64,000 nt of DNA from Actinokineospora pegani (lineage in GTDB: Bacteria; Actinomycetota; Actinomycetes; Mycobacteriales; Pseudonocardiaceae): the NCBI RefSeq assembly GCF_009745975.1, contig NZ_WHOL01000098.1, positions 1-64,000 of the forward strand, read 5' to 3'. The position numbers and the translations under genes are program-made. The notes beneath the pieces were generated by a model that saw only the letters and a list, made by a program, of their open reading frames with translations, was not told the origin of the DNA and searched no databases. Below, piece by piece: positions 996 through 17,026 of this stretch; position 1 is the stretch's first letter, and the number at the start of each line of letters is the position of its first letter.

Positions 996-1067
996 GCCCC
1001 CGTAGCTCAGGGGATAGAGCACCGCCCTCCGGAGGCGGGAGCGCAGGTTCGAATCCTGCCGGGGGCA
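996..1067 (+). tRNA. tRNA-Arg (anticodon CCG)
   Basis: The 72-nt cloverleaf folds fully: acceptor GCCCCCG (996-1002) pairs with CGGGGGC (1060-1066) and the discriminator is A1067. The D stem is GCTC/GAGC. The anticodon stem CCGCC/GGCGG encloses the loop CTCCGGA, with anticodon CCG reading CGG. The T stem GCAGG/CCTGC encloses TTCGAAT. No CCA is encoded. The last residues of the gene are supplied by the integrated element, which restores a functional 3' end. There is no terminator directly downstream; the native one appears to have been displaced to 6373-6400. Confidence 0.97.
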
Positions 1068-2992
1068 CATACAGCATCCACACGAGCGCCGGTCACACTG
1101 TGACCTGGCGTTTCGTGTGGGTTGCCGGTCAGGTTGTTGATCGTTTCGGCCGTGCTGATGATGTCGGGCATGGTGTCGCCGGGTAGTCGTATGTTGATGA
1201 TCACGTGGTCGCCGTCGTCGGCTAGCCGGACGGTAAGGCTGACGGCCTCAAAGAGCTTGCGCAGCAACGGTTCCGGTGCGTCGGACAGGTTCCCGGTGAG
1301 GTACGGAAGCACGTCCAGCAGGTCCACGTCCGCCGTGTCGGGTCGGGCGGGTGCGGCGTCGTCGGCGGCGTCCAGCGCGGCGACGGCGGACAGGGCGGCG
1401 TGCCGTTCGGCTTCGAGATCGTTGTAGGTGCCGCGCAGGGCGCGGGTGAACGGGTCGTCGGGGTCACCGTCTTGCGCTTGGCGCATGATCGAATTCTGGC
1501 GGCGGGCGAGGTCGGCGAGCACCCGCCGCAGGCGGTCGCGTTCGGCGTCGCGTTCTCGCGCTTCCCGATCATCCACAGTGGACAGGTCGGCGGCGAGCGC
1601 CGCGCGCCGGTCGGGACCGAAAACCCGTTCGGCGAAAAACCGGGATACCGCGCCCATCACGGCGTCTTCCCGGATGTAGACGGCTTTCGGATGCCCGGCG
1701 TACTTGTCGGGGCGTCCCCGGTTGTTGTTCTTCGGCCAACACATGTAATAGGCGGCGTTGTGGCGGACGTTGCCGTTCATGCGCCGTCCGCACTGGCAGA
1801 ACAGCATTCCCCGATACACGTAGGTGCGGAGCGTTTCCGGGTGCGTGTTCGGGGCGTTGTCGTCGCGGGAACCGCGCCGTTGCTGGCGGTGGGCGTTCAG
1901 TTCGTCGTACAGCCATTTGGGGATTAGCGGCTCATGCGCGGGTTCGTTGGACCACACCCACAATGCGGAGTCGTTGACCTTTCCGCCACGTGAGCGGGAC
2001 GCGCGCCGGTTGAACACCTGGTATCCGGTGTACTTCGGGTTGCGCAGGATTTCATAGACGCTGGTCTTTCCCCACGCGCCGCGCGCCCGCTTCCCACCGG
2101 GCGGCACGGGTGGCGGGTATTTCAGCGGGTCGGCGTTCAACCGGTCGGCAATGGTGTCGTAGCCGATGCCGTCGTGATACCGCCACAGGGCGATTTGTGT
2201 CACGGTTTCGGCGTGCGCGCCGTCCGGGTCGAGGCGTGTTTTCGTCTGCCCCTTGTCCGCCTTGCTCGGGTTGGGGTGGCGGTAGATTTTCGCCTTGTAG
2301 CCGTACGGGGGTTTGCCGATGTTCCATCCCTCGCGCACGTGGGTACACAGTCCGCCCCATGATTGTTCGAGGGTGTTCAACACCTCGTATTCCGCCACGG
2401 ACTGATTGATTCGTCGTTGCAGGATACGTTGCGCGCGACTGCCGGTGAGCGTGATCGGCTCATTCGAGGCAAACAGCGGAACACCCGAATTCTCCAATTC
2501 CCGCTCGATCGACAATCCCTCAAACGTGCGACGGGCGACACGGGACACGCTTTCGCAGATCACCACGTCGAAACGCCGTCCGGGGTGCCCTGATTCCGCC
2601 AACAAGTCAGCGACCCCGCCGTCACGCGGAATCGGGATGTCGCACTTGGCGTAGTCGGTGCCCTGTCCGCGCTGGTCGAGTTCGAGCCGCCCGGACTCCA
2701 CATCGTAGAAATGTGCGACGATCACCCACGATTCTGGCAGCGCCGCGCGACTGTTGCCCAATTGCCGCATCGCTGATTGGCGCGGGTCCTGGTTGTCGTC
2801 GGTCGAGGTACGCCCCAACCACGCGACGCGGATTTCATCCCGCATGAGCGTCAACGGCGTACCCAACGGGGACACCGCGTAATCTGACAACCCCGAGGGT
2901 CCGGACACGGGAACCGACGCCGCAAGCGATACCGTCCGGCGGGTTATACCGGGGGCGGGCGGGTTGCCTGCCGGGTCATCCGGTGTGGTCAC
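1007..2992 (-). CDS. Large serine recombinase (integrase)
   Basis: This 661-residue protein would catalyse integration and excision between attP and the tRNA attB. The catalytic serine is probably Ser63 in [13 protein letters not shown]. The resolvase domain continues through [20 protein letters not shown] recombinase domain follows (PPYGYKAKI, then [13 protein letters not shown]), then a zinc ribbon ([10 protein letters not shown] with a later YYMCW), then a coiled-coil-rich C-terminus. The GTG start at 2992 overlaps the stop of the upstream gene (GTGA), so the two are probably coupled; Met50 is an alternative start close to the conserved domain. Oddly, the last 17 residues ([17 protein letters not shown]) are read antisense through the tRNA, so this tail exists only in the integrated form. 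Confidence 0.93.
1059..1085. other. attL of the serine-integrase element
   Basis: This holds the predicted crossover dinucleotide CC (1059-1060), seven element-derived bases (GGGGGCA) that rebuild the tRNA 3' end, and the element arm CATACAGCATCCACACGA at 1068-1085. The arm has a near-perfect inverted partner at 6334-6351. The exact crossover cannot be fixed by sequence alone because identity with attR spans 10 bp. Confidence 0.75.
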
Positions 2993-3711
2993 GCTGCCTT
3001 CCTTTCCTCGCGGGAACCCTGTTCATCCCATTCACTCGCCCAGGTCAGCAATTCGGCGAGCACGGCGGCGAGGTTCCCACGAATCCGTTCACCCTGAGTT
3101 CCGCCGACACGGGTCACCGTGCCGAAATAGAACCGATCCGGCTTGCCCCTGCGCTTTTCATCATACCGCCACCCCGTATCATCGGTCACGAATTCCGGCC
3201 GATCATCACCCGAAATACCAGCCTTTTTCCGCAACGGAATCACCACCGCGCCGTCGCCGTAGGCGATCGGGATCGATTTCCCGGCGGCGAGGTCGAACAC
3301 GGCGAGCTGCCCGGCGGACCGCCCCAGTTCCAGCGCTTCCGCCAATGTCGGCACGACCACCGACACATCCAGGTGGACACGGCCGGAATCCGGGTCGCGC
3401 CACCCGCCCAGAACGCGCCGGGGAAGCCGCAACGCCCGATGCGCGGTGACCAGGTAGGCGGCGAGATCCTCGGCGGTCACGGGCTGGTCAAAAATATGTT
3501 CGCAGTAGGGATCGACCGACACTGCGTAGCCGCCGGTCACGGCGGCCCCGGTGGCCGGATCGACGGTGAACCCGCCGTCCGGCACCGACAACGCGCCCGC
3601 CAGTGCGGCCAGTAGCGCGACGGGCAGCCGAAACGGCCACTCACAGCCGCTGTACGCCGTCAGATCGGGTCCGGCCGGGTCAGGGTGGCGGCGGACAGGT
3701 TCAGCAGGCAT
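2989..3711 (-). CDS. Unknown protein translationally coupled to the integrase
   Basis: A 240-residue protein with ATG at 3711; its TGA overlaps the GTG of the integrase by four bases. I recognise no enzyme motif. The central part, roughly residues 60-160, has a regular pattern including RVHLDVSVVVPTLAEALELG and GQLAVFDLAAGKSIPI. The C-terminus is charged ([14 protein letters not shown]) and it has no membrane segment. The open frame continues upstream to 3972, but that extension is low-complexity and Cys/Arg-rich, unlike coding sequence, so the ATG at 3711 is preferred. Its coupling to the integrase suggests a role in excision, integration or maintenance of the element, such as a directionality factor or accessory protein; this is inference only. 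Confidence 0.7.
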   Translation of the reverse strand: MPAEPVRRHPDPAGPDLTAYSGCEWPFRLPVALLAALAGALSVPDGGFTVDPATGAAVTGGYAVSVDPYCEHIFDQPVTAEDLAAYLVTAHRALRLPRRVLGGWRDPDSGRVHLDVSVVVPTLAEALELGRSAGQLAVFDLAAGKSIPIAYGDGAVVIPLRKKAGISGDDRPEFVTDDTGWRYDEKRRGKPDRFYFGTVTRVGGTQGERIRGNLAAVLAELLTWASEWDEQGSREERKAA

Positions 3712-3994
3712 GAGCGCGACTCCTGGCAGTCGTGCGGCGGATCGCGCGACCGCGACCCGATGACACTGCTGAACTCCAAAAGTAACGCCGTTTGGGGACA
3801 TGCAAGAACAAATAATCTTGGTCGGAACGTTTGCCGCGCCCACCACCGACCGACCACGGTCATCACCCCGCCGCGCCACCCGGCGCGAACGTGTGTCACA
3901 TGACGTTCCTGTACATGAGTCTGGGATACCAACTGAACCCCCTACACCCCACCCCAGCAGGGGAAACACCACTCAGCAGGAGTGGCGCTCTAAC

Positions 3995-4590: not shown

Positions 4591-6069
4591 CTAGTTCCGC
4601 GCTTGTTCCAGGACCCGGGTCACGGCGGCGGAGTTCTTGAAATCTTGAAGCCTGTGAACGACGCCCCGGATTCGCGCCGAAGGTCGGGCCGATCCGACCC
4701 CCTGAGCGAGACGCATTGCCTCCTGGGTCACCAGTGCTGCGCGTTCGATTTCTTTACCGTCGATCAGTGCGTGTGCGAGCGAAGTCATGTACAGGGCTTT
4801 GTCGCGTGCCTGGGTGTCGTCAAATCGCGCCAGAGCGGTATCCAGGACGGATACCGCGCGCAGAGGACGATGCAATTCGGCCCAGCATCGGCCAGCCATT
4901 ATTTCGATCTCGTTGTCGTCAACCCAGAATACCCAGTCCGGTTCGGGGCGGCTACTTTCCGAGTGTAGCGCCAGTTTGGCCTCCGTCAGCGCCTTTTCCG
5001 TTGCTTGACGATCTCCAGCAACGGCATATGTCCACGCTTTCCGTTCGAGCAATAGAGCGCGAACTCTTGGTGTGGCGTCTTTCTCGGCGGCCGCGAACGA
5101 GGCTTCGGCAAGACGGATGTTCGGTCCGGTTGTACTTACTTCCTGATAGGCAAGAAAAGCGAGTGCATTTCCAGTCAACGTGGCGTCTTCCGCCTCTTTT
5201 GCCGCCTTCAGACTGTCGCTGTAGTGTTTCTTGGCTTCAGCGTGCATTCCTGCGTCAAATGCAGCCCAACCGACGAGTTGAGCCTGTTCCGACACTACTC
5301 CGGTCAATGCTGTCCGGATCTTCGGCAAGCAACTGACGTTTCGCACATATTCGGCCGTCGAAGCCAATTCTGAGGCGTACAGACTGTAGGTGTCCCGGCC
5401 CCCCAAATAGTTGTCTAGACGCCGCAAACGCGCGGTGCGCTCCAACAAGTAACGCAGGTCGGTTTCACCCGCACGGGAGGATAGTGGCGGGCGGAACGTC
5501 GTCGATGCGCTCAGCGTGGTTCCTGCGGCGATCCCCATGAATTCGCGTCGGTTCACCCCGTCCTCCATTTGGCTGGATGTTTCAAGTAGATCGGCCAATT
5601 GATCGACCGTGACGTTCAGGAGTTTCGCAATCTTTGCGCGCATCCACGGATGCGGTTGGTGCGTCCCGCGTTCCCATCGCCCGACAGTCGAAAACTCCAC
5701 ACCGATTTCCTGAGCGAAACTCTCTTGCGAATAACCCCGCCGTTTCCGAACGACTGCCAACGCACTACTCCCGCGCGGCGACTTCTCCTTAGTCCGCTCA
5801 ACCGACGAAACAGACACCTCGGGCGGAGAAAGAAGCTCTTCCGCAGAACATTCGAGATATTTTTCCAACAATCGAATAGTGGCCGGTCGCAACTGATGCG
5901 GTGTCAACTTGCCCGCGCACAGCCTTTGTATGTGCCGCAAACCCAGCGTGCCCACTTCACCATTCTCACGGGCAAACACTTCCAATTGTTCGGCAAATTC
6001 TTCGAAACTCAATCGGCGTTGCCTGATGCGCAGTTCCAACACCGTGCGCGCCGCACCCCTAACAGCCAT
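4591..6069 (-). CDS. XRE-family regulator with two HTH regions and a TPR domain
   Basis: A 492-residue cytoplasmic regulator. Residues about 10-80 look like a divergent helix-turn-helix (EFAEQLEVFA...LGLRHIQRLCAGKLTPHQL). Residues about 99-155 are a clear XRE helix-turn-helix (LAVVRKRRGYSQESFAQEIGV, then VGRWERGTHQPHP). A short RREFMGIAAGTTLS segment near residue 173 resembles a twin-arginine motif; it is common in this actinobacterial regulator type and is not an export signal in this position. The remainder, about 195-490, is helical with TPR-like repeats. Start is ATG 6069. It is the only regulator in the element and probably controls the element's own promoters; the repeats at 3995-4042 are a candidate target. 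Confidence 0.85.
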   Translation of the reverse strand: MAVRGAARTVLELRIRQRRLSFEEFAEQLEVFARENGEVGTLGLRHIQRLCAGKLTPHQLRPATIRLLEKYLECSAEELLSPPEVSVSSVERTKEKSPRGSSALAVVRKRRGYSQESFAQEIGVEFSTVGRWERGTHQPHPWMRAKIAKLLNVTVDQLADLLETSSQMEDGVNRREFMGIAAGTTLSASTTFRPPLSSRAGETDLRYLLERTARLRRLDNYLGGRDTYSLYASELASTAEYVRNVSCLPKIRTALTGVVSEQAQLVGWAAFDAGMHAEAKKHYSDSLKAAKEAEDATLTGNALAFLAYQEVSTTGPNIRLAEASFAAAEKDATPRVRALLLERKAWTYAVAGDRQATEKALTEAKLALHSESSRPEPDWVFWVDDNEIEIMAGRCWAELHRPLRAVSVLDTALARFDDTQARDKALYMTSLAHALIDGKEIERAALVTQEAMRLAQGVGSARPSARIRGVVHRLQDFKNSAAVTRVLEQARN

Positions 6070-6439: not shown

Positions 6440-7745
6440 TGAGGGCGCAGGAAAATCTTGCCGAGGGCACCACACAACAAGCACCATCACATCCCGGGCT
6501 TGCAGCGCACCTACCGGGAGACACCTCGTCCGATCGTCACCCGGGTATCACATCGCTAACGGGGAGGATGCCTCCAAGTTCCAGGAGCGGTACAAACGCC
6601 GAGCAGAACTGGCCGACAGCATCTACAGCCTCAACCCGCGGGTCTCGATGTATCTGGCGACGTCCATCAACGACATCCGCGAACTCCTCAGAGCCGAGAA
6701 CACCCACTTCGAACCCCGGGGCAAGCCGTGCTCGACTTGCTCGACGAGCCACGCCCGGGGGGGGAGTAATTAAATCAGAGTTAAACACGCAGGTCGAAGA
6801 ACTTCGCGCGCACATCAGCGAGACCTGCCGCTTGCACCCGACGAGTCATCCGAAACCGTCGCGCGACGGTGCTGGAGGAAGACCCGGATGCCGGGTTTCT
6901 CAGCTACGAGGTTCCCGGAGGCGAACGTCGTCCGTTCTCGACCTCGACTCCCCCGCGCACGACGCCGCCGCATCCACGGTTCTGAACTGGTACTACAAGG
7001 CAGTCGACGGGTACCCGGAACCGACTGCCGAGCAGGCAATGGAACTGAGCGCGACGATCAAGGTGCTGGTAACGCGCAGCGGGGTCAGTGTCGACGACCT
7101 CGCCGATGCTCTCCGGTGGCGGGTTCGATCAGAGAAGGCGGCCGCCGAGCAGGCGGGACTCCCTGAACACGAATGGCGCGCTCACCATCGCTCCGGTCAT
7201 GGCATTCGAAGCGGAACTGCTCTCAGACCTCGAAGCGGTCCACCTATGCGCACAGGGCAGACACTTGGCCTGGCCTCACTCACCTCGGCACTGGTTCCCG
7301 CACTGCGGAAGCATCAACGCTCGGTGGTCTTCTGTGGCCCCGAACAGTTGACACCGCTACTGGTCCAGTACCTCCGCGCATTGATGGGGGGAGAACACGA
7401 ACGAATGCAGTCGTGCAGGAGTGGGGCAAACCGGGGCCAGGTCGCCGTTTCCTGGTCATGGACGGGGCAGGCGAGGACGGCTTCAACCTGCAGGTAGCGG
7501 AAGCGGATTTCTACCTCCGGTTCCCCTGGAAGACACCATCGCCGCAGCAACCGAAAGTGCGTGGGCGCAGGCCGCGACAGCGGGTGCTGCGGGTACGCAA
7601 CCGAGAACAGCTGCCGTCAGGTCGGAACTCGTCGAGACACGAGAAGATGGACGTGCTCGATTCCATCCACAAGACCGTGCCCGAGCGAGGAACTTCGCTC
7701 CAGAATTGAACCGGTTCGAGAAGAGGTTGAAGAACTGCGCAGGTT
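6440..7745 (+). pseudogene. Degraded coding remnants, origin not recognised
   Basis: No single frame is coding throughout, but protein-like stretches appear in different plus-strand frames. They include KRRAELADSIYSLNPRVSM near 6590-6650, LEEDPDAGFLSYEVPGG near 6870-6920, LNWYYKAVDGYPEPTAEQAM with LVTRSGVSVDDLADALRWR near 6980-7130, and FLVMDGAGEDGFNLQVAEAD near 7450-7510. The switching frames suggest one or more genes broken by frameshifts. I cannot assign a family. Position between the integrated element and the DNA-modification genes makes them possible remains of an older island, including lost partner genes; that is inference. Confidence 0.45.
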
Positions 7746-7839: not shown

Positions 7840-8759
7840 GGCTTGGTGGAGTTGTGGGACTCCAGGAACATCGCGATGCGAATCGGTCGTGATCCGTCTG
7901 CGGTCTCGCGTGAGGTGGACCGTCACGGTGGCCGGGAGGGTTATCGGGCGGCCGACACCGCGGCGACGGTGACTCGTTCCCGGCCGAAGGCGATGGCGGT
8001 GGACCGATCGGTCTGGATGCGGTCGTGGGTGTGGTCGTTGTTGCGTTTGGGCTGGTCATCGGCCTCAAATGCGGACCGGTTGGCACGCTGTCATCGGCCC
8101 AGTGCCCGACGAGTCACGAAGCGATCTATCAGTGGGTGCACGCGCAACCGGTCGCGACCCTGCGCCGGGAGTTGATCGCGTTGCGCACTGGCCGCACTCG
8201 GCGCACCGATCCACAGCCGACTCCGGCCCCATGGATCCGGGAACCCCTCGACCTAGACGACCACCCCTGACGAGGTCGAGGGGCGTGTCGTGCTTGACCA
8301 TTCAAAGGGAGAAATGGTGATTGACAAGGGCGGCAGGACCGCAGTGGCGACCCTGGTCGAGCGCACCAGCAGGTCCCTAAACCTGGTCCCGTTGACGGGG
8401 CGGGACTCGTTGACGGTGCCCCAGGCGATCATCGTCGCCGCCAGCGATCTCCCGGCCACGGTCAGACGTTCGTTGATATGGGACTGCGGCTCGGAGATGG
8501 CTCTGCACGCCGATGTGACGGCGACGGGGTTACCGATGTTCTTCGCCCACCCGCACTCATCCTGGGAACGCGGCGACAATGAGGACCTCAACCGCATCGT
8601 GCGGAAGTACCTGCTCAAGGGTTGGAGATCACCGACGATCTCACCTAACTCGCCGCGGTCGCCGCAGAGATCAACGACCGACCCCGTAAACTCCACGATT
8701 GGAAGAAGCTCAGCGAGGCATTTACCGGATTCCTCGAGGCAAATGCTTCCACCGTTTGA
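7840..8759 (+). pseudogene. IS30-family transposase relic
   Basis: Three plus-strand frames carry consecutive parts of an IS30-type transposase. The HTH region reads IAMRIGRDPSAVSREVDRHG (near 7867-7926). A second frame gives SHEAIYQWVHAQP and LIALRTGRTRR (near 8110-8205). A third carries the integrase core KGGRTAVATLVERTSR through WDCGSEMALH to FAHPHSSWERGDNE (near 8325-8590). The tail EINDRPRKLHDWKKLSEAF (near 8670-8725) is in yet another frame after an in-frame stop. The N-terminus is missing and several frameshifts make it non-functional. No terminal inverted repeats were found. The 289 bp from 8760 to 9048 hold nothing I can assign. Confidence 0.85.
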
Positions 8760-9048
8760 ATCTGCCGTGCTGACTGTGGTGGCGGGCGAGTTGACGAGGC
8801 AGGCCAAGAACCTCAAGGTGAGCCTGTCACACGACAAGGTGGGGACAGACTCGCTGAGCAAAAGTCGCGCAATGCCGATGACGTCGTCCTGGCCACCCGA
8901 TGCACCGAGCACGCCGCGACGGGCTTCATCATCCAGAACAATGCCGCTCGGCAAGCGTGGAACACGCGGATGGGAGCGAGTCGGCCTCCCTGCTCCGCCC
9001 GGCGGTGCGAGGCTTAGGGAAACCTTCCGATGAGCAGGACTGGGCAAC

Positions 9049-10155
9049 CTACCGCTTCTTGAGCACACGCAGCAGGTGAGCAGTCAACTGTCGCACATCG
9101 TTGGGCGTGTTCTGGAGGTTGTTCCAGCGCCGCTCTTCTCCATCTGGAAACTTCCACGTGCCCGAGGTCCACGCGACATGCGGCTTCAAATCTTCAATCG
9201 CGCGATCGAGTGAGGAACTTTTGACGGCCTCAGCGGGTTGGTCGTCAGTCACCGTGTCCATGACGAAGCCCAGGGACTGGATTCCGACGCCGTGGGTGAG
9301 GCGGGAGTAGCGAGGTGCCTTAGACCACTCATCGGGCCAAGTGTCCCGCACCACGGTCCAGAACTCGATGAGGTGCAACAGCATTCGCTTGACGTCGCCG
9401 GAGCCGTCCACGGGGTTGCGGTATTGGTATAGGGCCCCCTCGAACAAGCTGTGCTCCACCATCTTCAGGATGCTGTTGTCCTTGATGTAGCCGTCAGGGG
9501 CAGTTGGAGTCGCGATGATCCGGAAGAACGGGCTCCGCTTGTCACCGTTCAGCCGGGTCATCAGTTGGGCGGGAAGCTTCCGCTTCAAGTAGGCGCGTGG
9601 CAAGTGGCCGGTGGTGTCCGGCAGCAGTTCGTGGACCAATCCTTTGGGCAGAGCCTTGGTCGAGTTGACCAGGATGAACTGAGAACGCTGTTCCTCTTCG
9701 GTGTCCGCGATGAACCCAACGACCGCAACGGGGAACTCTGCCAGGTCTGCGTCGCGGATCGCCGCGCTTCGCTGCTGGCCGTCCACCAGCCACGCGACCT
9801 TGTCCGCGTCGGCGAGTGCTTCGTCGACCGGGATGACGATCTCCCCGGCGACCGAGTAGTCGACCAGTTCGCCCTGCATGATGGCGGGGATGAACTCGAC
9901 CCGGTTGTCGAAGGCGACGACGATGGCGTTGGGCAGCATCGCCCCATCGGACTCGAGATATCGCTGGATGCCTCGGATGTGGCTGAGCACCTCGGGCCGC
10001 TGGTAGCCGGACAACTGCTCATCGTCACCTCGACGGATCCGGGAGACCGCGGCGAAGCTGTGCAGCTTCTTCCCGTCGATGGCGAAGCAGTAGATCCGTC
10101 GACGGCCCTGGCGCACCTCCAGAGCAGGTAGGCGCAGGGTGTAGCGGTCGGCCAC
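9049..10155 (-). CDS. dpdB: DGQHR-family protein, DpdB-like (copy 1)
   Basis: A 368-residue protein of the DGQHR (DndB/DpdB-like, ParB-related) family, with the signature as DGQQR at residues 125-129 (AWLVDGQQRSAAI). Other family landmarks are LSGYQRPEVLSHIRGIQRYL, LPNAIVVAFDN and FILVNSTKALPKGLVHELLP. In Salmonella, DpdB is required with DpdA to make dPreQ0 in DNA; its biochemical role is not fully settled. The GTG start at 10155 has an AGGAG ribosome-binding site and follows the dpdA stop by 75 bp, so this is the last gene of the four-gene minus-strand operon. It is clearly a paralogue of the protein at 11457-12581, an unusual duplication for this pathway. Confidence 0.85.
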   Translation of the reverse strand: MADRYTLRLPALEVRQGRRRIYCFAIDGKKLHSFAAVSRIRRGDDEQLSGYQRPEVLSHIRGIQRYLESDGAMLPNAIVVAFDNRVEFIPAIMQGELVDYSVAGEIVIPVDEALADADKVAWLVDGQQRSAAIRDADLAEFPVAVVGFIADTEEEQRSQFILVNSTKALPKGLVHELLPDTTGHLPRAYLKRKLPAQLMTRLNGDKRSPFFRIIATPTAPDGYIKDNSILKMVEHSLFEGALYQYRNPVDGSGDVKRMLLHLIEFWTVVRDTWPDEWSKAPRYSRLTHGVGIQSLGFVMDTVTDDQPAEAVKSSSLDRAIEDLKPHVAWTSGTWKFPDGEERRWNNLQNTPNDVRQLTAHLLRVLKKR

Positions 10156-10230
10156 GGGACACTCCTAGGTCGGGAGCGCACATCATAGCCAGCGTCGGAC
10201 GGCCACCGAGGAGCGCAGCCAAGTCGGCGC

Positions 10231-11460
10231 TCAGCGCAGCACCAACGTCCTCATCTTCATTTCGAGAACGCTCAGATTGTGGAATCCACGCCGCTTGTTA
10301 CGCTCGGTGCCCCGGAATATGATGATTTCGATTCCGTGCAACTTGCAGAGTTCACAAGGACACTCCTTCCACGGACGCTCCACCAATATTCGCCGGTAGT
10401 GATCCATGTACGATTTCTTCTTCGAGTCCGACCCCAAGACGAGTTTCTCATAATTCCCAAGCGCCTCCAAGACCTCTTCTATCCCGACGCCACCATGGTC
10501 ATACGCTCGCAGCAGCGACAGACTAGCGCGTTCTGCGGCAATGGCTTCGGACTGCGCCACCACACCCGAAAGCACGCGACGCTTGAGCGCAGGATTCCCA
10601 TCGACCTGGGGGACTCGGATGGCCGCGTAAGAAGCACCGCTTGTGTGATAATTGTTTCGGTCATCCATGAAAGCTTGTCGAAAAACTGAGGTGCTGTCGA
10701 AACTCGTCACACCATGTACGGCAAATTCCTCCATACTGTCCAACCGGTTGATCCCCAGTAAGTGCAACTCGGTCCCGCCGGTCAAGCGCGGCGAGATCTC
10801 TCGCAAGCATTGCAGGATCTCGGGCGTCTTCAGGGGCACCATCCCACCGAGGGCGATGCGCCGGTATCCCATCTGCTGCAGGCGTTCGACACTGTCGGCA
10901 TAGCTCGCCGGACTCCACCCCTGCGCGGCGCCAACCGGTTCAAGGTCAATTCGCCGGTCGCGAACCTCGGCGATGTACTTCTCAGCGAGATCGAGAGAAA
11001 TGTGCCTCCGCTTGACCCAAGCCGGGTCGACGTCCGCATCCCCGGCCAGGGGCAGGAATCCGAAGATGACGTGGTCGATGCTGACACCGGCGTTGAACTG
11101 GCACTCTTCGTAGAAGTCCAGCACCTCGTTGACGGTGTAAGGAGGGTACTCCTCGTCAATGTAGTTGAACGCCCCGCAATCCCCCAGGCTCGTCATCTCG
11201 GCTGGCAGCCTGAAATACTTGCGCACTCCCAAGCGATACAATCGCGCGCGCTGGGGGGCAGCGTACTTCCCCGCTCCCCTGCCGGTCGACGGGTCGACTA
11301 TGGCCTTGCTGACGAGTATGCCGTCATACGGCGCGGGGACTACTACCTCATGGGCGTAAACGTCGTCGCGCTGCCGCACCCGGGTGGCGAGGTATTCATC
11401 ATGGATGAAATCGTAGGTTGGACTGACAAGATCTTGACTATCTGGAAAAAAAAACTTCAC
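10231..11460 (-). CDS. dpdA: DpdA-type DNA-guanine transglycosylase
   Basis: This 409-residue protein belongs to the tRNA-guanine transglycosylase superfamily, DpdA branch, which exchanges guanine in DNA for preQ0. Landmarks: Asp94 in SLGDCGAFNY, at the place of the general-base Asp of the TGT DSGGFQ motif; GAAQGW near 178; Asp255 in VTSFDSTSVF, at the place of the nucleophilic Asp of TGT; and a zinc site CPCELC (Cys367, 369, 372) with His394. The GTG start at 11460 overlaps the stop of the upstream DGQHR gene (GTGA). The N-terminal FFF is encoded by nine consecutive T residues, a possible slippage site. Its placement with queC-queE-queD-folE2 supports DNA, not tRNA, modification. Confidence 0.9.
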   Translation of the reverse strand: MKFFFPDSQDLVSPTYDFIHDEYLATRVRQRDDVYAHEVVVPAPYDGILVSKAIVDPSTGRGAGKYAAPQRARLYRLGVRKYFRLPAEMTSLGDCGAFNYIDEEYPPYTVNEVLDFYEECQFNAGVSIDHVIFGFLPLAGDADVDPAWVKRRHISLDLAEKYIAEVRDRRIDLEPVGAAQGWSPASYADSVERLQQMGYRRIALGGMVPLKTPEILQCLREISPRLTGGTELHLLGINRLDSMEEFAVHGVTSFDSTSVFRQAFMDDRNNYHTSGASYAAIRVPQVDGNPALKRRVLSGVVAQSEAIAAERASLSLLRAYDHGGVGIEEVLEALGNYEKLVLGSDSKKKSYMDHYRRILVERPWKECPCELCKLHGIEIIIFRGTERNKRRGFHNLSVLEMKMRTLVLR

Positions 11461-12581
11461 GACTTATTCGACCTCGAACTCACGTATTCGCGAACGATGA
11501 AGTTGGACAGCGTGCTGATATGCCGAGGAGTGTTCTGCAACTCGTTCCACGGGGTGTTGAGTTCGTCCCATCTTCCACTCGTCCAGCAGCACTTGGGCGC
11601 GAGCGGCGCCAACTCGGCCCGGATTTGTCCGGCCAAGTCGTCGGCGTTGATATCCACGTGCGCCATCACTCGGTCCATGAGCCTGCCCATGGCGCGAATC
11701 CCCACCCCGTGCATCAACCTGCTCCTGGCGGGCGTAAGTCCCCAAGCAGCGGGAAATGTGTCGCGAACCGCGGACCAGTAGGAGATGAGGATTCGGCGGA
11801 TCGCACCGGTGTCCGTCGTGCCGGTGGAGAGGTTTCGGTGGAGGAACAGGCTCCCGGACGAGGAGTTCAGCGACTCCTCGATGGCAGTGATGAGGCTGTT
11901 GTCCACCACCACGGCGCCGCTGCGCTTGTCCGCCGCCGTCGACGCACGCTTGACCAAACCCTCGAACGGCGACTGAGGGTCCTGGTTCAACATGTCAACG
12001 AGCGCGGAGGGCAACTTTCGCGCGGACAGCTTCGCCGGGAGTGGTGTCCACACCTCCGGCAGCAACTCGGCCACCAGGTTCGTCGGCAGCGGTGACACGG
12101 TATTGACCCGGAGGAACTGGTCGCGTTGCGTAGCGAGGTCCTCTGCCTCGAAGCCTGCGACGATGACCGGCAGGCCGGAGTTCCGGGTGCGCGCCAGCGC
12201 GGCGCTGCGCTGTTGACCGTCGACGATCCACGCGGGTCGCGGCTCGTCGTCGGAAGCGACGACGGGAATCTCGATCGTCCCACTCTCAGTGAGCCCGTCA
12301 TCGAACCCCGCTGGACCGCGTTTCGACCGGAACCGTACGGAGTTGGGCAGGGCGAGGATCAGCCCATTCGGGAAGAGCACATCTTCACCGTCCAGGTATT
12401 CCAGGATCTGTCTGACGTGCTGGCGCTTTTCCGGCCGCTGGTAGCCCAGCAACTTGCCCGCCGCGTCCCGCGAGATGCGGGCGACGTCGGCGACCTTGGC
12501 CACCTCCTCCGCAGTCAGCGCGAACACGTAGAGCGGGATCGTGGGGTGCTGCTTGATCCGCAGCGCACGACGCTTGATCAC
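11457..12581 (-). CDS. dpdB: DGQHR-family protein, DpdB-like (copy 2)
   Basis: A 374-residue paralogue of the protein at 9049-10155: LLGYQRPEKRQHVRQILEYL, FPNGLILALPN, AWIVDGQQRSAAL (DGQQR at 121-125) and FLRVNTVSPLPTNLVAELLP align segment by segment. The GTG start at 12581 overlaps the upstream stop as GTGA; the longer frame to 12632 would overlap the preceding gene by 55 bp and is less likely. Its stop overlaps the dpdA start in the same way, so the two are probably made in fixed proportion. Two divergent copies around one dpdA suggest a heteromeric accessory complex or recognition of two substrates or sites; this is inference. Confidence 0.84.
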   Translation of the reverse strand: MIKRRALRIKQHPTIPLYVFALTAEEVAKVADVARISRDAAGKLLGYQRPEKRQHVRQILEYLDGEDVLFPNGLILALPNSVRFRSKRGPAGFDDGLTESGTIEIPVVASDDEPRPAWIVDGQQRSAALARTRNSGLPVIVAGFEAEDLATQRDQFLRVNTVSPLPTNLVAELLPEVWTPLPAKLSARKLPSALVDMLNQDPQSPFEGLVKRASTAADKRSGAVVVDNSLITAIEESLNSSSGSLFLHRNLSTGTTDTGAIRRILISYWSAVRDTFPAAWGLTPARSRLMHGVGIRAMGRLMDRVMAHVDINADDLAGQIRAELAPLAPKCCWTSGRWDELNTPWNELQNTPRHISTLSNFIVREYVSSRSNKS

Positions 12582-13492
12582 GGTGTTCCCATCGTCTCGG
12601 CGAAGAGTTGAGCGAAGCGCTTTTGCTCGCACGCTCGACCGCTCTCCCGCAGCATGCGGTGCAACCTGGTCCTAGACAGGCCAGGGTCACCGACCATCGC
12701 ATCGCGGATGAAGAGCCTGACCTGGTCGTCGGTCATCGCCGACCGTTCGTACTTGACCTCGATGCGCACCTTGTTCACCCACCTCGACCACGTTCCTCTC
12801 GTGATCGGTGAGATCAGGGAGCCGTGGCCGCACTTGCTCAGCCACGCTCCAGCCATCCGCGCGTTGAGGCCGGTCATCGTTCCCCCTAGTTCGGTGCGCA
12901 GGGCACCGTCGGCAGGGACGCGGAAGGCACCAGGGAGGTCTTCAGCACCGCCAATCAGGACAACCTCGTCAGCGGAACCCACGAGATCGAGAATCTCCCG
13001 CTTGAGCACGGTGGCGTACCCCTCGGACAGCACGAGCAGGACCGCTCGGCGACCACCGAGGTCTGCCAGCGCGGGTGTGCCTATGCGCTTGCGCAGTCCC
13101 TTCCACCACAGCCTGCGGTCGACCCAGGTCGGCGCCACGGTGTCCAGGTGTCGCGGGCTGAAGGTCGCGGCGTAGGGCGGAAAGGCGGCGGAGACAGGCT
13201 GCAGACCGAGACCAGCCGAGGCCACCCACAGGCGGGGAGCGAAGCCCGCCACCTCGGCCAAGTCCAGCAACGTGCGAGCGCTGGTCCAGTGCTCGCCCTG
13301 GTAGAGGCGCAGTAGCTCGACAGGCGCGTCCGCAGTCATCAGCCTCCGATGCCACTCATCCAACCGCCCTTCGACGCCTCCCGCCGGGAGAGTCCGCACC
13401 TGAAGGTGGGAGGAGGCCGCAGCGACCTTGCGCTCCGTACAGGTCACCACCACAGATAGTTCCCTCAATGCCCCTAAGCCTCTCGTGTCCAA
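12578..13492 (-). CDS. YaaA/DUF6884-like protein, candidate DpdC-type factor
   Basis: A protein of up to 304 residues, first in the minus-strand modification operon and overlapping the next gene by GTGA. The N-terminal half has the pattern of the YaaA/DUF6884 group: VVVTCTERKVAAAS, LYQGEHWTSARTLL, WVASAGLGLQ and FPPYAATFSPRH. The C-terminal third (TRGTWSRWVNKVRIEV, then SRTRLHRMLRESG) looks like a winged-helix DNA-binding extension. The TTG at 13492 opens the longest frame. GTG at 13453 is better spaced from a GAGGG Shine-Dalgarno and starts exactly at the conserved VVVTC block, so the true start is probably there. In the Salmonella system DpdC converts dPreQ0 to the amide dADG; whether this protein does so cannot be shown from sequence. 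Confidence 0.7.
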   Translation of the reverse strand: MDTRGLGALRELSVVVTCTERKVAAASSHLQVRTLPAGGVEGRLDEWHRRLMTADAPVELLRLYQGEHWTSARTLLDLAEVAGFAPRLWVASAGLGLQPVSAAFPPYAATFSPRHLDTVAPTWVDRRLWWKGLRKRIGTPALADLGGRRAVLLVLSEGYATVLKREILDLVGSADEVVLIGGAEDLPGAFRVPADGALRTELGGTMTGLNARMAGAWLSKCGHGSLISPITRGTWSRWVNKVRIEVKYERSAMTDDQVRLFIRDAMVGDPGLSRTRLHRMLRESGRACEQKRFAQLFAETMGTP

Positions 13493-13576
13493 CTAGCCGC
13501 GAGCGCATCCGACTCTACTGCCAGATAGCAAGCTAGGATGCACCGGACTGATCATGCCAATAAGGGGGTGACGTCG

Positions 13577-14278
13577 GTGGAACGACCGGCGATCGTACTA
13601 CTCAGCGGTGGACTAGACTCCTCCACCGTCCTCGCTATCGCCCGTGCTCAAGGGTTCTCGCCATACGCCCTAAGCTTCCGGTACGGCCAACGGCACAGCG
13701 TCGAACTCCAGGCCGCCGAGCGCGTTGTTCGAACTCAGGGTGCGGCTCGCCACGTTGTTGCCGAGATCGACCTGCGAGTGTTCGGCGGTTCGGCGCTCAC
13801 ATCGCATGTCGCGGTACCCAAGCGCGACAGCGTCGACGAGATCGACTCGGACACGATCCCGGTCACCTACGTCCCCGCCCGCAACACGATCTTCCTTTCG
13901 TACGCGCTGGCATACGCGGAGGTCGTCGGGGCGACCGACATCTTCACCGGCGTCACGGCCGTCGACTACAGCGGTTACCCGGACTGCAGGCCCGAGTACA
14001 TGCGAGCGTTCGAGGAGATGGCCAACCTCGCCACCAAGGCAGGGGTCGAGGGCACGACCCGCCTCACGCTGCACTCGCCGCTGATCGAGATGTCCAAGGC
14101 CGACATCATCCGCACCGGACTCGATCTGGGCGTCGACTACTCCATCACCTCGAGTTGCTACGACCCCGACGAGCAGGGGCGCGCGTGCGCCAAGTGCGAC
14201 ACATGCTTGTTGCGCCTGAAGGGTTTCGCCGAACTCGGGCAGTCCGACCCCGCGCCCTACCAGAATGTGATCGCATGA
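13577..14278 (+). CDS. queC: 7-cyano-7-deazaguanine (preQ0) synthase QueC
   Basis: QueC converts 7-carboxy-7-deazaguanine to preQ0 using ATP and ammonia. The ATP-pyrophosphatase P-loop SGGLDSST is at residues 10-17 and the zinc cysteines are in [18 protein letters not shown] near the C-terminus. [17 protein letters not shown] is typical of the family. At 233 residues it has normal length. I chose GTG 13577 because AAGGGGG lies eight bases upstream; ATG 13538 is possible but has no such site. It starts the plus-strand operon diverging from the dpd genes, with the promoters of both presumably in 13493-13576. Its stop overlaps the queE start (ATGA). Confidence 0.95.
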
Positions 14279-14910
14279 CCTACTTGATCAAAGAGATCTT
14301 CTACACCCTGCAGGGTGAAGGGAGTCATGCGGGCAGACCCGCGGTGTTCTGCAGATTCTCCAGGTGCAACCTGTGGACGGGCAGGGAGGAGGACCGCGGG
14401 CGCGCCATCTGCCAGTTCTGTGACACCGACTTTGTCGGCACCGATGGGGTGGGGGGCGGCCGGTTCAGCACCGCCGATGACTTGGCCGAGGCAGTGGCGG
14501 CGAACTGGCCGTCGGAAAGTCCGGAGAAGCGTTTCGTGGTGTGCACCGGCGGAGAACCCCTGCTGCAGCTCGACGAAGCCGCTGTGGGCGCCTTGCACGA
14601 CCGCGGCTTCGAAATCGCTGTGGAGACTAATGGGACACGCGCCGCCCCCGAGGGGTTGGACTGGATCTGCGTCAGCCCAAAGATCGGAGCTGACCTGGTC
14701 CTCACCAGCGGCGACGAACTCAAGTTGGTCTATCCGCAGGCCGGTGGTGACCCCGCGCAGTTCGAGCACCTCGACTTTAACCACTTCAGGCTTCAACCGA
14801 TGGACAGCGTTGAGCGGGACAGCAACACCCGCGCCACGGTCGAGTACTGCCTGAAGAACCCCAAGTGGTCGCTGTCCCTACAAACGCACAAGTACCTGGG
14901 AATTCAGTGA
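14275..14910 (+). CDS. queE: 7-carboxy-7-deazaguanine synthase QueE
   Basis: QueE is the radical-SAM enzyme that rearranges 6-carboxy-tetrahydropterin to 7-carboxy-7-deazaguanine. The 211-residue protein shows the cluster motif in its C-x14-C-x2-C form (RCNLWTG ... [10 protein letters not shown]), also seen in proteobacterial QueE, instead of the common CxxxCxx[18 protein letters not shown] precedes it, and [11 protein letters not shown] and ISVSP-like CVSPK follow. The ATG at 14275 overlaps the queC stop, and the stop overlaps the queD start as TGATG, indicating a tightly coupled operon. Confidence 0.94.
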
Positions 14911-15275
14911 TGGAGATCTACCGCGAGTTCACCTTCGAGGCGGCGCACCGTCTCCCGAACGTCCCCGAGGGCCACAAGTGCTCACGGCTGCACGGTCACT
15001 CCTACCGGGTTGTCGTGCACGTAGAAGGCCCCGTGGACCCCCATGCGGGATGGGTGATGGATTTCGGGGACGTGAAGACGGCTTTCAAGCCGATCGAGGC
15101 CCAACTGGACCACTACTACCTCAACGACATCACAGGCTTGGAGAACCCCACCAGCGAGAACCTCGCGGTGTGGATCTGGGACCGTCTGGCACCAGGCCTC
15201 CCCCACCTCAACGCCGTAGCGGTGCGCGAAACTTGCACGTCCGGTTGCGTTTACAGGGGTACAACCGGTGCATGA
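14910..15275 (+). CDS. queD: 6-carboxytetrahydropterin synthase QueD
   Basis: QueD makes 6-carboxy-5,6,7,8-tetrahydropterin from dihydroneopterin triphosphate. The 121-residue protein has zinc ligands His13 (FEAAHRL) and His28/His30 (RLHGHSY), with catalytic Cys24 in HKCSRLHGH, the standard arrangement for QueD as opposed to eukaryotic PTPS. The C-terminal [15 protein letters not shown] and [11 protein letters not shown] are also family-typical. ATG 14910 shares bases with the queE stop. The longer frame from 14865 adds 15 residues inside queE and is unlikely. Confidence 0.95.
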
Positions 15276-16065
15276 CGTCCAAAGTGAGATCGATCTCCGT
15301 GGCATCGCAGTGGACCAGGTCGGGATCGCTGGCTTGCGCTACCCGGTCGCATTCGACGACGGTTCGCTTCGCCAGAGCACGATCGCGGACTTCGCTGTCA
15401 CCGTACGACTGCAGGAAGAGCGCCGCGGCACGCACATGAGCCGCATGGTCGCGCTCGTGCACGACCATGTAGGGACGCTCGACCCCCGCCGCTTGCCTCA
15501 GATATTGAAACTCGGCGCTGACCTCCTCGACGCGCCCGGGATCACGATCTCTGCCCGTCTCAGCATCGCCCGTCCAGTCACCGCCCCAGCGTCCGGCCTG
15601 GAATCGATGGTAGTCCACGACTTGGAGTTGACCGGCACATTGGACGACAGCGGTAGTTCCGTTGTCACGACCACCCACACCGAGGTCACCAGTCTGTGTC
15701 CCTGTTCGAAGACGATCTCCGACTACGGGGCCCACAACCAGCGAAGCCAGGTGTCCCTGTCCATCGAGGGGACTGGCGACCTGCCCTACCCCTTGCCTGT
15801 GACGGACGCCCTCTCGATGCTTGAGCACACCGGCTCGGCACCTGTCGTGCCATTGGTAAAACGACCGGACGAGCGGGTTCTGACGATGCTCGCATACGAC
15901 CACCCCGCCTTCGTGGAAGATATGGCCCGCGACGTCGCCGCGCAGTGCAGGAAGCGTGGTTTGCAGCACGAAGTGCGGGTGCGGAACCTTGAAAGCATCC
16001 ACAGCCACGACGCGGTAGCCGTAATTCGAGGTGGAGCGCGGACGGGCAGGGAACTTGCCGGGTGA
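15268..16065 (+). CDS. folE2: GTP cyclohydrolase IB (FolE2)
   Basis: FolE2 opens GTP to dihydroneopterin triphosphate, the first step to preQ0. This 265-residue protein has the type IB pattern: [13 protein letters not shown], then [20 protein letters not shown] with the active-site cysteine, and a C-terminal [17 protein letters not shown]. It overlaps queD by eight bases, starting at GTG 15268. With queD, queE and queC it completes a self-contained GTP-to-preQ0 route, so the locus does not depend on host genes. No queF is present, so preQ0 itself, not preQ1, is the expected product. After its stop, 217 bp without a gene separate it from GC-rich chromosomal genes. Confidence 0.93.
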
Positions 16066-16282
16066 GTCATGAGGCAATCTACTAGCACGTCTACACGAAC
16101 CGGCCTGAAAGCTGAGACAACTGTCAGACAGAGTTATAGCCGGATTAATCAAGTAATTCCTTCAAAGCGCCGCAGTTTGAGAGAACTGAGAATTGGTCTC
16201 ATGTGGTGAGTTTGCAGAAGCAGGTTCGGGGGCTGTGGACGATGTATGCTCGTTTGGCCGCACCGGAGGAGAGCCGACGACG

Positions 16283-17026
16283 ATGGAACCCTGGGCGCGG
16301 TTGCGCGCACGGACGCTGGTGGTCGAGGACGAGTCGGTCTTGGCGCTGAACAAGCCCGCGGGGGTGTCGGTGACCGGTGAGCGCCACGACACCGACCTGG
16401 TGCGGATGGCGGCCGAGGACGGCGAGGAGCTGTTCCCCGTCCACCGCATCGACAAGGTCACCTCCGGTCTCATCCTGTTCGCCAGGACCCTTCCCGCGCA
16501 CGGTGGGCTGACCAGGCAGTTCGCCAAGCGCACCGCGGACAAGGCCTACCTGGCCATCACCGCCACCACCGGGCTGCCCGCGCGCGGCACCATCGACCTC
16601 CCGCTCAGCGTCGGCCGCAAGAACCGCGTCCGCATCGCCGCCCCCCGCGAGTCCATCCACCGCGAGGGCGACACCTGGACGGTCGACCCCGCCGACGTCC
16701 TCGACACCCGCACCTACCCGTCGACCACCGAGTTCACCACCCTCTGGTCCAACGACACCCACACCCTCCTCGCCGCCCGCCCCCGCACCGGCCGCCGCCA
16801 CCAGATCCGGGTCCACCTCGCCTGGACCGGCCACCCCCTCCACGGCGACCCCCTCTTCGACCGCGGCGGCGAGCACCCGCGGACGGCCCTGCACTCCTGG
16901 CGGTTGGGGCTGGACGGCGAGTCGGGCAGGTTGGACCTGTCGGCCACGCCCGGGGAGGACTTCTGGGCCCCGGTGGCGGACTCCCTGGGCGCGCAGGAGC
17001 GCGGGGACCTGCTCGCTCGGTCCTAG
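16283..17026 (+). CDS. RluA-family RNA pseudouridine synthase
   Basis: A 247-residue pseudouridine synthase. The catalytic Asp57 is in FPVHRIDKVTSGLILFA (RluA motif HRLDxxTSG, with Ile in place of Leu). ALNKPAGVSVTGE upstream and RTGRRHQIRVHLAWTGHPLHGDPLF downstream are the other conserved blocks. There is no S4 domain. ATG 16283 has GGAGGAGAG ten bases upstream; the longer frame from 16193 lacks support. Probably isomerises uridine in rRNA or tRNA, but the site cannot be predicted. It marks the return to GC-rich core chromosome after the modification island. Confidence 0.9.
   Translation: MEPWARLRARTLVVEDESVLALNKPAGVSVTGERHDTDLVRMAAEDGEELFPVHRIDKVTSGLILFARTLPAHGGLTRQFAKRTADKAYLAITATTGLPARGTIDLPLSVGRKNRVRIAAPRESIHREGDTWTVDPADVLDTRTYPSTTEFTTLWSNDTHTLLAARPRTGRRHQIRVHLAWTGHPLHGDPLFDRGGEHPRTALHSWRLGLDGESGRLDLSATPGEDFWAPVADSLGAQERGDLLARS

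Follow-up and report, generated by a model that had tools for sequence, protein, structure and literature searches.

The first 64,000 nucleotides of a contig from Actinokineospora pegani (NZ_WHOL01000098.1) carry a compact group of dpd genes for the modification of DNA with 7-deazaguanine bases. We call this whole stretch the window; it is C98:1-64000 of genome G000, a draft assembly of 6.44 Mb in 128 contigs. Our analyses make it very probable that the Dpd restriction-modification system of this genome is split, with its modification half in the window and an exchangeable restriction half that acts in trans from elsewhere. Judged by gene positions and trees, the two halves of such systems have come apart and been swapped in the family to which this genome belongs, the Pseudonocardiaceae. 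The evidence consists of gene identities, open frames, unlinked placement, strict co-occurrence, the ruins of an older operon and conflicting trees.

The island holds a DNA-type DpdA, two DpdB proteins, DpdC and a preQ0 supply made up of queC, queE, queD and folE2 (Table 1), and the frames of all these genes are open. A sequence-only reading of the window had proposed a DpdA-type transglycosylase with Asp94, Asp255 and Cys367/369/372. This is confirmed by the NF041059 model, by a lengthwise alignment with the DNA-guanine transglycosylase of PDB entry 7ui4 (E-value 6.7e-123) and by a residue check, in which His394 is also present. A profile search was to decide whether this 409-residue protein is instead a tRNA-acting Tgt, and that identity was rejected: TIGR00449 gives 14.8 bits, far below its cut-off of 47.6, and there is no Pfam match. 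The two DGQQR proteins noticed on either side of DpdA both pass the NF041060 cut-off and are DpdB. Pfam DndB (PF14072) also matches DpdB1 and DpdB2 over its cut-off, as a wider superfamily. Membership in the Dnd systems was considered with DndB-type models only (DndC, DndD and DndE were not searched) and was rejected: the TIGR04172 cut-off is 450 bits, and the two proteins score 52.1 and 47.9. A gene described as YaaA/DUF6884-like is real, and its identity is corrected here to dpdC itself by the PADLOC model, with no match in Pfam or NCBIfam. The divergent queC-queE-queD-folE2 group and the local route to preQ0 also stand, since profiles recognise these genes at 13538-16065 on the forward strand; FolE2 falls under the cut-off of NCBIfam NF010200 (195.7 of 215 bits). 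Structural searches added little: no solved structure was found by sequence search for DpdB1 or DpdC, and Foldseek with the AlphaFold model of DpdB1 returned nothing from the PDB at an E-value of 0.001 or below. The AlphaFold models of DpdB1 and DpdB2 are mediocre (mean predicted local distance difference test scores of 74.3 and 77.7) and were left unused.

The restriction genes dpdD-K are in the same genome, on contig C121; in the island itself only ruins of them are found. The best matches in G000 to the DpdD, DpdH, DpdJ and DpdE profiles each lie on C121, within an intact dpdE-F-G-H-x-J-K-D operon. Its genes dpdE, dpdF, dpdG, dpdH, an unnamed gene, dpdJ and dpdD have 1052, 922, 331, 1062, 251, 1502 and 736 codons, respectively. 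PADLOC recognises DpdE, DpdF, DpdH, DpdJ, DpdK and DpdD with E-values from 2.5e-37 to 0, and SNF2, DEAD, AAA and PLD domains are found by Pfam. No dpdA, dpdB or dpdC is present in the 34 kb around the operon, and G000 carries one DpdA only. Because of the distances to the contig ends, no less than 41 kb must separate the operon from the locus in the window, whatever the order of the contigs.

The window once had a restriction operon of its own. A tblastn search with 131 restriction proteins from the systems of the family (E-value threshold 1e-4) found no intact restriction-type dpd gene in the 64-kb window. It gave 31 matches from 12 queries, all starting between 6500 and 9049, and none in the reversed window that served as a control. 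The sequence-only reading had seen no intact restriction gene here, which is right. In addition, pieces of dpdE and dpdD are visible, and its suggestion of a lost restriction half is borne out by them. All of the matching restriction proteins belong to the type 1 clade (G056, G064, G078, G177, G230 and G307), with the best from G064 and G078. Since only type 1 proteins match these frameshifted pieces, we infer that the locus formerly had a linked type 1 restriction operon that has mostly been deleted. A remnant of an insertion sequence (IS) of the IS30 type lies between the two ruins, and a transposase with HTH_38 and rve domains stands beside the C121 operon. An IS30-like element joining the two loci was considered; the identity is only 43% and no link is claimed.

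The two halves of the system strictly occur together. Among 390 genomes of the family, DpdA passes the NF041059 cut-off in 16, and a strong DpdH (E-value 2.2e-63 or better) is found in exactly those 16 (Fisher's exact test, p 1e-28, without correction for kinship). Weak matches to DpdA (E-value 1e-5 or worse) occur in 4 more genomes, and weak matches to DpdH, the best at 2.3e-7, in 10 others. Of the 16 genomes of the genus, DpdA is present in 3, and it is these 3 that hold DpdD together with strong DpdH, DpdJ and DpdE, in each case on a contig other than that of DpdA. Outside the family, DpdH is present in 39 of 39 genomes with DpdA, at an E-value of 4.7e-67 or better. Altogether, none of the 55 genomes with DpdA (16 in the family and 39 outside it) lacks DpdH.

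Co-occurrence does not imply proximity in this family. The halves are linked in 8 of the 16 genomes, with starts 9-14 kb apart, and unlinked in the remaining 8, in all of which the frames of dpdE, dpdF, dpdH, dpdJ, dpdK and dpdD are open and as long as expected. In the single-contig genomes G078 and G188 the halves are 4.17 Mb and 3.24 Mb apart, and the least possible separations are 41 kb in G000, 55 kb in G009, 33 kb in G066, 17 kb in G070 and 144 kb in G187. Outside the family, 37 of 39 loci are linked, as read from coordinates in loci chosen by their likeness to the window DpdA; the other two (L012 and L041), whose dpdA contigs end within about 3 kb, were left uncounted. Splitting is therefore common in this family, with 8 of 16 against none of 37 (Fisher's exact test, p 1.5e-5, again uncorrected for kinship). 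Among 43 fetched stretches, 38 contain restriction genes, downstream of dpdB1 in 35 cases and on the other side in three (L029, L032 and L043), and the orientation of the restriction operon relative to the modification genes varies. Genome G230 carries one DpdA and two complete restriction operons (contigs C29 and C6), which belong to different clades; one is linked and the other distant.

A possible case of splitting was also seen on a plasmid. Plasmid p057_I of Nostoc sp. C057 (L174) has a dpdE-F-G-H-x-J-...-K-D operon at 5380-26695, and its record is not among the 25 with a DpdA match, which makes it a candidate for a system with its halves on different replicons. No plasmid matched a 48-residue fragment of DpdG that is truncated at the end of its locus.

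That the halves have been exchanged is shown by comparing concatenated trees of DpdA-B1-B2-C and DpdJ-H-E-F for 15 genomes (G009, or L002, was left out for its assembly gap). The modification and restriction trees disagree. For example, G064, G070 and G071 have modification proteins that are 86-99% identical and form one clade with full support, and their restriction operons are spread over three clades (DpdJ 33-36% identical); a single restriction clade for these genomes is rejected by the approximately unbiased (AU) test (p-AU 3.6e-7). By their modification genes, the window and G013 group as sisters (DpdA 82% and DpdB1 89% identical), but their DpdJ proteins are just 33% identical and such a sister relation is rejected for the restriction tree (p 1.2e-5). 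The reverse is seen for G000, G066 and G070, which share a restriction clade but not a modification clade (p 2.5e-4). We chose the groups for these three tests with the identities already known, and the tree program gave a warning about long branches at the deep forks. Swapping does not account for every split: G013, G187 and G188 have restriction operons that fall in one clade with the linked operon of G115, so relocation without exchange would be enough for these three.

A gene for a Vut-type transporter, putatively of preQ0/queuine, adjoins folE2 in 7 of the 9 places compared (three of the nine tested with Pfam), and folE2 or dpdB1 in other loci. In G066 it adjoins the distant dpdD (L148:4473-5012), possibly a trace of a former joint island.

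Is the C121 operon truly the partner of the window locus? It could be silent, decaying or made for another mark, and be present by coincidence or shared ancestry, and this would agree with the fact that its clade is not that of the ruin in the window (its DpdJ has 33% identity to that of the sister genome G013). We consider this improbable. There is no second DpdA in G000 that the operon could serve, its frames are open with their domains intact, and a relative of the same restriction clade adjoins dpdA in Nonomuraea (L042; DpdJ 63% identical). Furthermore, no strong DpdH occurs in the 374 family genomes without DpdA. The ratio of nonsynonymous to synonymous substitution rates (dN/dS), calculated with our own script for the Nei-Gojobori method (NG86), is 0.22-0.34 for six restriction genes of C121 compared with G070, with dS above 1 in all six; for the eight modification and preQ0 genes, window against G013, it is 0.06-0.21. 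Because dS exceeds 1 in most of these comparisons, we use only the direction of the ratios, which is that of purifying selection.

The sequence-only reading had proposed a modification-only locus, self-protecting or epigenetic in role. Taken alone, the window would fit this, as it contains fragments of dpdE and dpdD and no intact restriction gene, and islands without linked restriction genes are in print (PMC11888242). With an intact dpdE-F-G-H-x-J-K-D operon on C121 of the same assembly, however, this is not the best reading, and the strong DpdH in 55 of 55 genomes with DpdA speaks against it further; we now hold it to be even less probable than a C121 operon without a role here. Least likely of all, and in our view very improbable, is that the halves are true neighbours separated by broken contigs: G000 is a draft and the G013 contigs end near both loci, but the separations in the two single-contig genomes and the minimum distances in five others rule out assembly breaks as the general cause of the split.

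Several observations nevertheless weigh against our interpretation of a split system with an exchangeable restriction half. The DpdH scan scored two candidates per genome, and the co-occurrence counts ignore shared descent. In G013 the contigs end about 2 kb and 1 kb from the two loci, which could still be close together there. Searches for DpdG came up empty in three of the distant operons, those of G009, G013 and G188; the last has an unlabelled 306-residue frame at the expected place. On C121 itself, DpdG was placed by similarity only (25% identity to the DpdG of L007), and the unnamed gene between dpdH and dpdJ, at the place of dpdI, matches no PADLOC model. The dN/dS ratios are rough: dS is above 1 for 5 of the 8 genes when the window is compared with G013, and for all six restriction genes when G000 is compared with G070. 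Finally, in G009 it is the modification locus that is incomplete in the assembly (a gap in dpdB1; dpdB2, queE and queD not found at the locus), and the restriction operon is intact. This is probably a matter of assembly. In the G009 contigs concerned (C14, which is L002, C47, C48 and C79), a run of N interrupts dpdB1, and contig ends carry another three dpdB1-like stretches, of which one is just 68% identical to dpdB1 of the window.

The function of the window locus can be proposed by analogy with Salmonella Montevideo, in which DpdA, DpdB and DpdC make the mark and dpdD-K restrict (PMC11888242; for the roles of the Dpd proteins also PMC6884629 and PMC12839542). FolE2, QueD, QueE and QueC would make preQ0 locally, DpdA with DpdB1 and DpdB2 would insert it into DNA as 2'-deoxy-7-cyano-7-deazaguanosine (dPreQ0), and DpdC would convert this to 2'-deoxy-7-amido-7-deazaguanosine (dADG), the role given to it by the S. 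Montevideo work (PMC11888242). The products of the C121 operon (an SNF2 helicase, DEAD helicases, an AAA ATPase, a PLD-type nuclease and DpdD) would read the mark of this locus and attack unmarked DNA in trans, the former linked operon of another clade having presumably been broken by deletion and decay.

We lean slightly towards a broader hypothesis, that restriction is a plug-in. At least three deeply diverged operons, linked or distant and single or stacked (as in G230), would then read one mark from one conserved cassette. If this is true, it is the modified base, rather than contact with the modification proteins, by which self would be recognised; some so-called modification-only islands would then be half of a split system. 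Modification loci that are nearly identical and yet paired with three unlike restriction operons offer natural swap experiments on what Dpd restriction recognises.

The pair of DpdB proteins was another feature that had been singled out in the window, as a duplication. It is in fact the usual state of the lineage. A single scan of GTDB contigs with the window DpdA as query gave 43 related loci, and in 42 of them the order is dpdC-dpdB2-dpdA-dpdB1 with que genes nearby. In the one locus that departs from it (L002), the assembly has a gap within dpdB1, and dpdB2 is absent from the locus. Both paralogs are present in 54 of 54 examined loci free of an assembly gap; in the table of DpdB proteins L002/G009 was left out and G064, G070 and G013 were entered once, as L003-L005. 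The two copies separate in a tree of 41 rows with support of 100/100. In the 54 loci, 73 alignment columns reach at least 95% conservation in each copy, and 66 of them carry the same residue in both, DGQQR included. Because of this separation and these shared columns, dpdB2 is an old, conserved paralog, probably active, and no local oddity. The single DpdB of an Enterobacter plasmid groups with the dpdB1 side of the tree. Extra dpdB copies are already in print (n=801; PMC11888242), and the role of two DpdB proteins per dpd system now becomes a testable question. A Sinorhizobium plasmid has the B-A-B arrangement too, with a copy to each side, although these sit on very long branches of the tree. 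This is plasmid B of Sinorhizobium americanum (L172), with dpdB-dpdA-dpdB-queE-queD-queC-VUT at 10065-16660; on the plasmid, the only replicon covered, no annotated restriction-type dpd gene lies within about 12 kb.

Comparison with known systems illustrates what is different about the window. On the Enterobacter plasmid pPOL9A, dpdA-dpdB are followed by a convergent dpdD-K-J-x-H-G-F; there is one DpdB beside dpdA and restriction is linked, whereas the window has two DpdB proteins, restriction on another contig and a ruin at the old place. The linked actinobacterial islands (L007 and L009 of Streptomyces, G056 and G115) share the dpdC-B2-A-B1 order and the que/fol genes with the window, and G115 also the tRNA-Arg type, but their restriction operon is near dpdA, whereas that of the window is broken and another is elsewhere in the genome. 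The nearest working parallel is the Ssp phosphorothioate defence (SspBCD with SspE or SspFGH), where two restriction modules, compatible with each other and additive in effect, recognise a single modification module (PMC8092258). Ssp differs in chemistry, marking the backbone with sulfur, and the parallel implies no membership; protein relatedness was compared only through the DndB-type models. The GATOR-GC survey (PMC11888242) lists islands with dpdA-C and no linked dpdD-K, as well as extra dpdB copies. Its section on these systems views islands and says nothing of restriction genes at other places in a genome, whereas for G000 they were found there. A literature search at the level of titles and abstracts, with core dpd papers partly outside its scope, returned no report of split or unlinked dpd genes.

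These results show that modification-only status cannot be read from an island alone, and a genome-wide test for DpdA and DpdH is a simple alternative. They also show that the two halves of this defence can separate, and that their pairing changes in evolution.

The setting of the locus fits an integrated island. The GC content per kilobase is 0.56-0.68 across the first 17 kb of the window and 0.65-0.79 in the remainder, and a tRNA-Arg(CCG) gene and a serine recombinase gene lie at the outer end. A gene for this type of tRNA also adjoins the modification loci of G013 and G188, both split genomes without an intact restriction operon there, and the whole linked island of G115 ends at tRNA-Arg(CCG). 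A second copy of the 3' end of the tRNA gene was not found in the window at up to 3 mismatches, nor was the far end of the integrated element.

Table 1. Features of the window, and the restriction operon found on contig C121.
Feature	Position	Strand	Evidence or remark
tRNA-Arg (CCG)	996..1068	+	ARAGORN; the island probably inserted here
Large serine recombinase (integrase), abutting the tRNA gene	1007..2992	-	Pfam Recombinase, Resolvase and Zn ribbon
dpdE ruin (SNF2-type helicase), lacking its N- and C-terminal parts; in three pieces and two frames	6564..7583	+	tblastn E 3e-50 with DpdE of G064; PDLC02843
IS30-like transposase remnant between the dpdE and dpdD ruins	8082..8723	+	tblastn with an open reading frame of L018
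dpdD C-terminus ruin, three frames, convergent with dpdB1	8743..9016	+	tblastn; PDLC02839 match at 8838-8948
dpdB1, DGQQR protein	9049..10155	-	NF041060 E 2.6e-155, over cut-off
dpdA, DNA-guanine transglycosylase	10231..11460	-	NCBIfam NF041059 E 2.2e-179, over cut-off
dpdB2, second DpdB, an old paralog	11457..12632	-	NF041060 E 6.3e-120, over cut-off; tree
dpdC, expected to convert dPreQ0 to dADG	12578..13492	-	PADLOC PDLC02817 E 3.3e-110
queC	13538..14278	+	TIGR00364, PF06508
queE (Cx14CxxC type)	14275..14910	+	TIGR04508 E 1.9e-104
queD	14865..15275	+	TIGR03367, PF01242
folE2 (GTP cyclohydrolase)	15268..16065	+	PF02649 E 1.1e-62
Intact dpdE-F-G-H-x-J-K-D operon	C121, about 166257-183761		Open frames throughout

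Two further genes lie between the tRNA end of the island and the ruins. The integrase gene is adjoined by a 327-residue open frame at 2989-3972, without a match in Pfam, NCBIfam or PADLOC, and a regulator of the NsdA family with HTH and TPR domains (NF053720) is encoded at 4591-6069, between the integrase and the remains of the restriction genes.

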